A stretch of DNA of 58,402 nucleotides. It comes from a virus. Location of the stretch: positions 1 to 58,402 of IMG/VR virus record IMGVR_UViG_3300030118_002679; one strand, 5' to 3'. Made by a program: the position numbers and the translations under genes. The notes beneath the pieces are model-generated. The model worked only from the letters and a program-made list of their open reading frames with translations, was not told where the DNA came from and made no database searches. Positions 7,080 through 52,887 of the stretch are shown in pieces. The stretch's first letter is position 1; every line of letters starts with the position of its first letter.

Positions 7080-7388
7080 ATGAACTCAGATATAGGAGCA
7101 AAAACTTTAACTAGCACTGGAACTATTCAGTCTGGTCGTACAAGATTGCTATCTATTTATTATGTGGGTCATAGTTCGGCTGGAAGTTTAACTTTCAAAG
7201 ATGGTGGAGCAACTGGTACACAAAAACTTGTGATAGCAACTCCTGCTGGAAGTGCAGCTGATCAATATCAAGTGGATATGCCTTTAGATGGTATAGTTTT
7301 TAAAACTGATATGCACTTGACTATTAGCAATGTAACCTCTGTTACAGTTTTTGTAACACCGATTACTGCTGATACTGATAATGGATAG
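7080..7388 (+). CDS. small beta-rich structural protein
   Basis: The 102-aa protein is beta-rich, with TTSTGTIQSGRTRLLSIYYVG-like strands (shortened here) and a pattern shared with small virion surface proteins: repeated Thr/Ser/Gly turns and a VTVFVTPI strand at the end. TAGGAG precedes the start. The next gene begins within its last codons, an 8-base overlap. It resembles in style the 116-aa protein at 19424. Confidence 0.6.
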   Translation: MNSDIGAKTLTSTGTIQSGRTRLLSIYYVGHSSAGSLTFKDGGATGTQKLVIATPAGSAADQYQVDMPLDGIVFKTDMHLTISNVTSVTVFVTPITADTDNG

Positions 7389-20788: not shown

Positions 20789-20817
20789 AACCCTAACTAA
20801 TCAGTTAGGGTTTTTTT
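20789..20817 (+). terminator. rho-independent terminator
   Basis: AACCCTAACT and AGTTAGGGTT form a perfect 10-bp stem around AATC, followed by seven T residues. It isolates the gene at 20392 from the unit that begins just after. Confidence 0.93.
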
Positions 20818-20818
20818 G

Positions 20819-50718: not shown

Positions 50719-51052
50719 ATTGTTACCGTTTTTTTGTTAAATTTACCATAAAGCACTTACTTAGAAAATAAAAAATAAAAAAAAATTGCAGCAAAAACAA
50801 TCCTCTGTAGCTATTTTTTCCCAAAATCTAGGAATTTTTCCCAAAGTTTTCCCAAAACTATTTCTCTGTAAGGGTATGTATTCTGGGATTTTTTCCATTT
50901 TCCCAAAATATTTGCTTATTCTACGCTATTAATATTTTTTTTTTTCTAAGCAGCTGCTTTATAGAAAAATAAGAATTTAGGAAAAAATACATAAAACACT
51001 TGCATCACTAATTCGATGTGCTATTATAATAGTATAAACAAAGGAGAAATAA
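50719..51052. promoter_or_regulatory. intergenic control region with repeated boxes and a dyad
   Basis: This 334-bp region lies between divergent genes and holds no gene. It contains four copies of TTTTCCCAAA (starting 50816, 50836, 50847, 50898), two copies of CTCTGTA, and a dyad at 50941-50968 (TTTTTCTA with TAGAAAAA arms around AAGCAGCTGCTT). The rightward promoter at 51000-51027 follows. The box spacing of 20, 11 and 51 is near multiples of a helical turn. An origin or operator cluster is possible. Confidence 0.6.
51000..51027 (+). promoter_or_regulatory. promoter with degenerate operator
   Basis: TTGCAT (51000-51005), 16-base spacer, TATTAT (51022-51027); TATAAT at 51025-51030 is an alternative -10. 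The spacer has CAC and GATGTGC, retaining the right half of the palindrome seen at 20342 and 38637. AGGAG precedes the ATG at 51053. Confidence 0.62.
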
Positions 51053-51403
51053 ATGAATAATAAACAATATAAATGGGAAAGCAGCAGTATGATGATAAAA
51101 TCTGTTACTGAAGAATTAGTAAAAAAATCAATTAAAGATGGTTGGGCAGTGAGTGTTTTTCTTGACAGTCACACTTGCATACTTAAAAACAGTAAATGTT
51201 TTGATCAAATTATGTGGAACTTACACCAAGGTTGTTTTGATGGTGAATCAGTACAAGTTTGTATTAGTAAAGGTAATAAAAAAGATTACTGTACTGTACT
51301 TTTAAATCAAGGTTCACCAGATCAAGAAATTTGTCATATTTATTATGATAATTATATTTCTGATTGGTGTTTTAAAACTAATAACGGACAAAAGGAGATA
51401 TAA
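51053..51403 (+). CDS. hypothetical early-type protein
   Basis: The 116-aa protein begins MNNKQYKWESSSM, has six or more Cys residues scattered through it, and ends in a Lys-rich tail. Its start (MNNKQY) resembles that of the protein at 20392 (MNKKQY), and both are behind related promoters. I do not recognise the family. It is followed by the structured RNA. Confidence 0.65.
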   Translation: MNNKQYKWESSSMMIKSVTEELVKKSIKDGWAVSVFLDSHTCILKNSKCFDQIMWNLHQGCFDGESVQVCISKGNKKDYCTVLLNQGSPDQEICHIYYDNYISDWCFKTNNGQKEI

Positions 51404-51410
51404 GCATTTA

Positions 51411-51531
51411 TTGTAGCTCTCTTCGGAGAGTTACGACAAGTGTTTAACACTTGATAAGAGGACACGTTATGTAAACCCTGTCCGTATGTAGAGAGTTTTG
51501 GGATCTACCTGGTTGTAATGTGTCTTCTTAT
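51411..51531 (+). ncRNA. structured RNA candidate upstream of the radical SAM gene
   Basis: Three helices abut with no linker. Hairpin 1 (51411-51436) has 11 pairs, two of them U-G wobbles, capped by C(UUCG)G. Hairpin 2 (51437-51453) pairs CAAGTGT with ACACTTG. Hairpin 3 (51454-51531) has a 17-pair base helix (ATAAGAGGACACGTTAT with GTAATGTGTCTTCTTAT, three G-U pairs) and encloses AACC/GGTT and GTAGA/TCTAC stems. The last base is 16 bases before the ATG at 51548. It may be a regulatory leader or a stable small RNA. I cannot match it to a known family. Confidence 0.7.
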
Positions 51532-51547
51532 GTAATAAAAGGATAAA

Positions 51548-52555
51548 ATGAGTAAATTTGTAAAATTAATACAAGTAGATGGTAAGTTGCCTAATTTAGC
51601 ATTGATGAAATTAAGTTCATATTATAAAGAAAATGGTTATCAAGTAGATTTTACCAGATCAGTTCATAAAGATTTGTTTGATAAGAACTATCACTTTGTT
51701 TTTGCGTCAAGCATTTTTAAATTTAGTAAAAACAGAATACAAAGACTTAAACAAAATTATCCTAAAGCAATAATAGGGGGAACTGGCACTGATGATTGGA
51801 AACTATCTATAGAAGACTATATTGGTGATTATGATAAATATGATTACACAATTTATCCAGAATATAATTTTAGTTTAGGCTTTACCCAAAGAGGGTGCAG
51901 ACTAAAATGTAAATTTTGTGTTGTACCTATTAAAGAGGGAAAAAACAGATCAGTAATTAATTCAGTGTATGATATTTGGAGGGGAGAAGGTTATCCAAAA
52001 AAGCTGCATCTTTTAGATAATGACTTCTTTGGACAACCAGAAGAGCAATGGAAATTAAGAGTAAAAGAAATACAAGAGGGCAAATTTCAAGTATGTTTTA
52101 ATCAAGGCATAAATATAAGATTGATAGACGAAACAGTAGCAGAAAACTTGGCTACTATAAATTTTAAAGATGATTCTTTTACAAGAAAAAGAATTTACAC
52201 AGCTTGGGATAATATCGGAGATGAAAAAAGATTTTTTAAGGGTGTTAACTTATTAGTAAAGTATGGAATAAAGCCAAATCAAATAATGGCATATATGTTA
52301 ATTGGTTATGATAAAAGAGAAACTTGGGATCGCATATGGTATAGATTTAATAAGATGGTAGATGTTGGTGTGTATCCTTATCCAATGGTATATGATCCTT
52401 TACAACAAAAAACAGAATTAAAACAATTCCAAAGGTATGCAGTACGTCAATATTATAGACACAAAACATGGAAAGAATATTTATACTGGTACAATAATAG
52501 AAGTATATCCAGTATGGATCAAAAGAAGCAAATAGATTTATATGAAAACAAATAA
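51548..52555 (+). CDS. radical SAM protein with B12-binding-like N-terminus
   Basis: The 335-aa protein has Cys117-x3-Cys121-x2-Cys124 in QRGCRLKCKFC, the [4Fe-4S] motif. Residues 1-100 resemble the Rossmann-like half found before the radical SAM domain in MiaB- and BchE-type enzymes (LMKLSSYYKENGYQVDF, AIIGGTG). Downstream strands include LHLLDNDFF and IMAYMLIGYD. Related proteins occur in several phage groups without known substrate. AAGGA precedes the ATG. A structured RNA lies directly upstream. Confidence 0.8.
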   Translation: MSKFVKLIQVDGKLPNLALMKLSSYYKENGYQVDFTRSVHKDLFDKNYHFVFASSIFKFSKNRIQRLKQNYPKAIIGGTGTDDWKLSIEDYIGDYDKYDYTIYPEYNFSLGFTQRGCRLKCKFCVVPIKEGKNRSVINSVYDIWRGEGYPKKLHLLDNDFFGQPEEQWKLRVKEIQEGKFQVCFNQGINIRLIDETVAENLATINFKDDSFTRKRIYTAWDNIGDEKRFFKGVNLLVKYGIKPNQIMAYMLIGYDKRETWDRIWYRFNKMVDVGVYPYPMVYDPLQQKTELKQFQRYAVRQYYRHKTWKEYLYWYNNRSISSMDQKKQIDLYENK

Positions 52556-52571
52556 AAAAAAGGAGAATAAA

Positions 52572-52778
52572 ATGAGTAAATTTAAAGATCACTTAATGCA
52601 AAAAGAACAACAGTTAGATGAACAAATTATTTTTATGAATAAGATGATTAACAATACACAATCTGTTATTGATAAATCTAATGATACTTGGATCATAAGA
52701 TATTGGACTAATGTTCGTAATACCCTACAAGAACAACAAAAAGATTTACAAAAACAAAAGACAGGAATTAGTTATTGA
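52572..52778 (+). CDS. small coiled-coil protein
   Basis: I use ATG 52572 (68 aa) with AGGAG 6 bases upstream. An in-frame ATG at 52542 lies inside the previous gene. The protein is helical, with Gln/Lys-rich heptads (QEQQKDLQKQKTG). No family is recognised. Confidence 0.58.
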   Translation: MSKFKDHLMQKEQQLDEQIIFMNKMINNTQSVIDKSNDTWIIRYWTNVRNTLQEQQKDLQKQKTGISY

Positions 52779-52887
52779 TATTCCTTAAACAATCGTTTAA
52801 GGTTGTGTTGTCACCACTATGTGACTATCCTTTGTTGCACCTGGTAGCGTCATTTCTGCTGGGTGCTACTTTTGTAAAAAGGTCATC
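52779..52887 (+). other. structured intergenic leader with alternative pairings
   Basis: CCTTAAAC/GTTTAAGG (52783-52802) forms an 8-bp hairpin with AATC loop. GTCAC/GTGAC follows (52810-52825). Then GCACC (52837-52841) can pair with GGTGC (52862-52866), or GTAGC (52844-52848) with GCTAC (52865-52869); these share bases and exclude each other. There is no T-run for a terminator. The ATG at 52888 follows shortly after. Confidence 0.5.

Follow-up and report, generated by a model that had tools for sequence, protein, structure and literature searches.

A conserved CUUCGG hairpin between exchanged genes of a putative pelagiphage: a candidate for mRNA processing and stability

Intercistronic hairpins serve as RNase III processing sites in T7-type phages. 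Hairpins with the CUUCGG motif (Tuerk et al., 1988, cited in PMC8948821) are, according to PMC8948821, frequent between phage genes and abundant in T4, in which one reportedly stabilizes the gene 32 transcript. PeSL (promoter early stem-loop) cassettes, as recounted in PMC4503421 (after Arbiol et al., 2010, and Comeau et al., 2014), are conserved intergenic stem-loops where T4-type phages exchange genes, and the manA and wcaG RNAs (PMC2864571) are structured RNAs from marine metagenomes and from cyanophages. The hairpin described here, H1, was found at 51402–51445 (+ strand) of the window, i.e., the whole stretch of 58,402 nucleotides that was analyzed (IMG/VR record IMGVR_UViG_3300030118_002679). 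The element is an undescribed RNA, modular and specific to a phage group, whose general kind is known. Like the T4-type CUUCGG hairpins, H1 has a stable stem and a C(UUCG)G loop and lies between co-directional phage genes; unlike them, its stem is 19 bp (2–8 bp in the T4 type), its sequence is conserved over 40–50 bases, and in some relatives it is part of a larger modular RNA. It shares with PeSL a conserved intergenic stem-loop where neighboring genes are swapped, but the phage is not T4-type, the stem has no terminator T-run, and no conserved promoter adjoins it, a promoter-like element lying instead one gene upstream. Like manA and wcaG it is a structured RNA in a marine phage genome, although it matches neither family and is not tied to a metabolic gene. 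Lying between cistrons and forming roughly two turns of an RNA double helix, H1 may also be likened to the T7-type RNase III sites.

Pelagibacter phage HTVC023P has a large terminase with 74% identity to that of the window, and HTVC027P one with 63%, and the window appears to be a pelagiphage akin to the HTVC023P type, relatives of which infect the ocean bacterium SAR11. The genes around H1 were, in order, a 116-aa gene of the KYKW family directly upstream of the hairpin (51053..51403, + strand; no Pfam or PHROG match), a radical SAM gene (51548..52555, + strand; PF04055, phrog_9298), a 68-aa gene beginning MSKFKDHL (52572..52778, + strand; listed as a 78-aa ORF from 52542), a VRR-NUC-like gene and the large terminase. 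The label VRR-NUC-like is a tentative one derived from the gene's sequence, which gave weak matches to phage helicase/endonuclease families. In the relatives, the 68-aa gene was the nearest conserved gene downstream of the RNA site.

Of the 5828 140-base stretches scanned over the two strands, 51401–51540 (+ strand) ranked first for folding after GC correction. The predicted energy of 51404–51547 was -47.7 kcal/mol, compared with -29.6 ± 3.5 kcal/mol in dinucleotide shuffles (z = -5.24; 0 of 200), and the three hairpins taken singly gave z values of -5.3, -4.2 and -4.4 against their own shuffles. The RNA structure is real, as the earlier note on this DNA had held in calling the pairing unlikely by chance. 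That note had described contiguous hairpins of 11, 7 and 17 bp, the first with a C(UUCG)G loop and the last ending 16 bases before the ATG at 51548. All three could form as described, CTTCGG at 51421–51426 closes 11 uninterrupted bp (51411–51436), and 16 bases do separate the end of H3 from the ATG. The three-helix arrangement itself was amended on two points. H1 extends to 19 bp, in segments of 8 and 11 bp with one 1x1 mismatch between them, and its start coincides with the stop codon of the upstream gene, which ends at 51403. The 7-bp hairpin H2 (51437..51453, + strand; CAAGTGT/ACACTTG) is a minor competing alternative, as its 5' strand CAAGUGU is also the lower strand of H1 and pairs with 51402–51409 once the native 5' flank is given. 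For the window sequence at 15–37°C, the lower part of H1 had a probability of 0.83–0.96, vs. 0.02–0.16 for H2. The preferred fold is thus predicted to consist of two hairpins, H1 and H3, the latter a long hairpin (51454..51531, + strand; z = -4.37) with an outer helix of 17 bp and further inner pairs.

No family of Rfam 15 matched the element at gathering score, and none that was relevant appeared at relaxed E-values, in agreement with the earlier note, which had known of no matching family. ARAGORN gave no tRNA or tmRNA match in the element. A conserved protein reading through the region had been named there as evidence that would speak against an RNA; no conserved open frame crossed the element or its homologues on either strand.

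Homologues of H1 were reached through relatives of the terminase, and pattern scans added more. With R2, a covariance model of H1 used to search these loci, H1 was matched in the window and in 14 other related phage contigs at 71–82 bits, and all its other matches were to the reverse strand of these hairpins. Eight distinct H1 sequences were obtained, including that of the window. About half of the relatives were without the element, and H1 is therefore dispensable. Where it was present, it was kept nearly letter for letter despite swapped flanking genes, with 87–92% identity between the window and its relatives, whereas the upstream protein was only 36–41% identical or unrelated. Wherever the upstream gene of a homologue could be read, the H1 core started 8–17 bases past its stop codon. 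For most relatives, the DNA resemblance to the window broke off at about -8 to -11 on one side of this core and +31 to +43 on the other, the exceptions being L102 and L170, in which it reached further upstream.

In the alignment of the eight distinct H1 sequences, 96.7% of cells were paired, compared with 40–59% in slid controls. Two pairs of alignment A5 (1–44 and 17–28) had compensatory changes, namely U-A to A-U at the base and C-G to U-A in the upper stem; it is the window sequence that carries these two changes. Three further pairs had a one-sided change that kept the pairing. Shuffles matched the observed covariation in 15–22 of 500 cases for most measures; because the sequences are so alike, support from covariation is moderate. 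H2 could form in the homologues in altered guise, with little covariation (166 of 500 shuffles). The comparative check that the earlier note had proposed for all three helices thus came out in favor of H1 and gave hardly anything for H2. The unrelated DNA that bounds the conserved block on both sides, and its presence or absence among relatives, are what a DNA recombination anchor with a hairpin idle at the RNA level would also display. This is the least probable of the readings weighed here, as compensatory changes preserve a pairing that pure DNA homology does not need, and the extreme stability and the UUCG loop also count against it.

Outside this group of phages, the long-form core described below was absent from the genomes of 84,980 bacterial and archaeal species, and the RNAs, used as DNA queries against annotated records of phages and plasmids, gave nothing significant. 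A looser H1 pattern had one match in those species genomes, in a Thorarchaeota MAG, which was judged to be due to chance, as were the matches in L185, L186, L188 and L183.

Both neighbors of H1 change among the homologues. The gene before it belonged to the KYKW family in most cases and was unrelated in L095/L172/L175 and in L173. At least four different genes occurred downstream; the next gene was the 68-aa gene, one beginning MYLYYVSHNKH, MNIDMKLLKN or MTKDLLQLQK, or, in the window only, the radical SAM gene. The latter is flanked by a repeat of 26–29 bases (51534–51560 and 52555–52583; copies 86% identical) that contains a ribosome site and start, ATGAGTAAATTT, which suggests an insertion in front of the 68-aa gene; the radical SAM gene was probably inserted locally behind the RNA. 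Among relatives of this gene in viral contigs, for which 80 loci were kept, no element was seen upstream (35 upstream regions read; 23 loci searched with the model), and no H1 homologue other than that of the window preceded a radical SAM gene. The earlier note had offered a cis-regulatory leader of the radical SAM gene as one possible role. This idea was abandoned, since the adjacency is confined to the window, the genes before and after H1 both change, the examined relatives of the gene are without the element, and the relatives of the element are without the gene. The link to radical SAM is incidental. More broadly, a riboswitch-like or RBS-controlling leader of whichever gene follows, with H1 and H2 as the two states of a switch, seems quite improbable. 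In its favor, the window has the RBS of the next gene close by, and several relatives are able to form either of the two mutually exclusive pairings; against it, the downstream gene is not conserved (that of the window being a local insertion), H2 has low probability and the slight covariation noted above, and the RBSs are not sequestered. As neither neighbor is constant, control of one particular gene is unlikely.

A stable stem directly behind stop codons could also be a transcription terminator or attenuator between cistrons, and GGTTTTATATT comes after the alternative hairpin H2 in L105/L107. Nevertheless, no T-run follows any hairpin, neither H1, H2 and H3 in the window nor those of the long forms, and the terminator scan did not list H1–H3, while a canonical intrinsic terminator, AACCCTAACTAATCAGTTAGGGTTTTTTTG, exists at 20789–20818 (+ strand) of the same window. 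Termination is therefore unlikely.

The homologues differed in what follows H1. A short form (L105/L108, L107, and L173) consisted of H1 and a possible H2 only. A long form (L092, L093, L094, L095, L102, and near copies) was an RNA of ∼210 nt starting with H1 and continuing for ∼160 nt, with a core downstream of H1 at 475–650 in L092, 165–325 in L094 and 980–1150 in L102. About 100 nt of this core were nearly invariant, although the coding DNA of these phages is much more diverged, and three pairs of one of its stems had changed on both sides. Some long forms had an extra structured 3' part. The covarying stem, around UUAGCGAAA and AAAGUAGUGA, had the look of a kink-turn when inspected by eye. 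The version in the window, H1 followed by H3, was missing the conserved core. The similarity of H3 to the long-form core, and to a second RNA at 52783–52868, was no better than in shuffles, and its exact core was not found among viral contigs; H3 thus appears to be private to the window, with no homologue.

These forms bear on the reading of H1 as the 5' domain of a trans-acting phage small RNA, freed from the operon transcript and directed at host or phage targets. On this view, some relatives would carry a long version (∼210 nt or more), and the window one that was shortened or rebuilt with H3. Such an RNA is possible but unlikely. The independence of the element from either neighboring gene, the nearly invariant core with its compensated stem, and the absence of an open frame would fit it; the loss of that core from the window, an H3 without homologue and short forms that hold little besides H1 would not, and neither an RNA-specific promoter nor a target was found. 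Held with similarly low confidence is the proposal that the element represents an undescribed modular family of noncoding RNAs, restricted to HTVC023P-like pelagiphages and acting in trans during SAR11 infection, with the window carrying a derived version whose core had given way to another hairpin.

One gene upstream of H1, a promoter-like element, TTGCATCAC..GATGTG..TATAAT, lies at 51000–51030 (+ strand) and is partly palindromic with an operator-like center. Its counterparts in relatives (L095, 4263–4294; L121, 4461–4496; L124, 428–463) contain the palindrome ATCACAT..ATGTGAT. The number of promoter-like matches in the region was that expected by chance (17 vs. 16.1 in shuffles). The element precedes different first genes, the 116-aa gene in the window and, in a variant form, another gene in L095/L172/L175; the slot is thus made up of promoter-like element, exchangeable gene and H1. 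In the relatives L118–L124, the promoter-like element was followed by a hairpin, AAGTGTGA..TCACACTT, just 5' of the RBS.

We consider the best explanation, with a probability of about 0.5, to be that H1 is a CUUCGG hairpin between cistrons that serves mRNA processing or stability where genes are swapped, in an accessory operon of a pelagiphage; most likely, it marks and protects the end of the exchangeable gene. H1 would form in the transcript directly behind the stop codon of this first gene and act in cis, blocking 3'–5' exonucleases and/or providing a site for an RNase III-type double-stranded cut, so that the upstream and downstream parts of the mRNA would be separated and stabilized. At the DNA level, its ∼40–50 conserved bases would offer homology for swapping neighboring genes. 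In the window, the H1 element would have been lengthened downstream by the private H3, with the radical SAM gene inserted behind it. Two points speak against this mRNA-boundary reading: about half of the relatives do without the element, and the ∼210-nt RNA of some others, with its almost invariant core, exceeds what a simple barrier needs. Still, of the roles that the earlier note had listed, protection of the mRNA end is favored over a processed small RNA.

The same operon contains the second structured RNA (52783..52868, + strand), with three hairpins and an invariant linker, TCCTTTGTTG. A model search found it in the window and at 25 other loci, and it occurred in every searched relative in which the 68-aa gene adjoins the VRR-NUC-like gene. 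Helix a had compensatory changes in 4 of 8 pairs (100% of cells paired) and helix c in 4 of 11 (95% paired). Its covariation score was reached by 0 of 500 shuffles, in a count that had the middle helix in the wrong register; the middle hairpin could form in each sequence singly but was mostly not beyond shuffling. The comparative support for the second RNA is better than that for the H1 element. It had no Rfam match, and its terminator-like flags came with weak T-runs. A pairing of the linker with ribosome binding sites, AACAAAGGA, was considered and dismissed, as few such sites exist in the window and there was no excess.

In more distant relatives, a hairpin of the form AAGGAGAGTGCTTAA(C/T)..GCACTCTTCTC recurs between genes, directly behind or before them (after 5342 in L086, before 2406 in L087 and near 1085–1112 in L110). 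HTVC023P, HTVC027P and 023Pt_psg01 (L180, L181, and L182) have several very stable intergenic hairpins or folds around their terminase genes, including one at 7246–7328 of L180 with a z value of -8.4. Structured intergenic RNA therefore seems to be frequent in this phage group, for which no mention of noncoding RNA was found in the particular papers searched.

The H1 element and the second RNA are defined targets for the existing transcriptomes of HTVC027P. There is a smaller chance that the long form of H1 represents a new class of noncoding RNA. An RNA hairpin that stays in place while both flanking genes change would point to a general route of accessory-gene exchange, by which genes could be added or swapped in these phages without breaking the operon mRNA.
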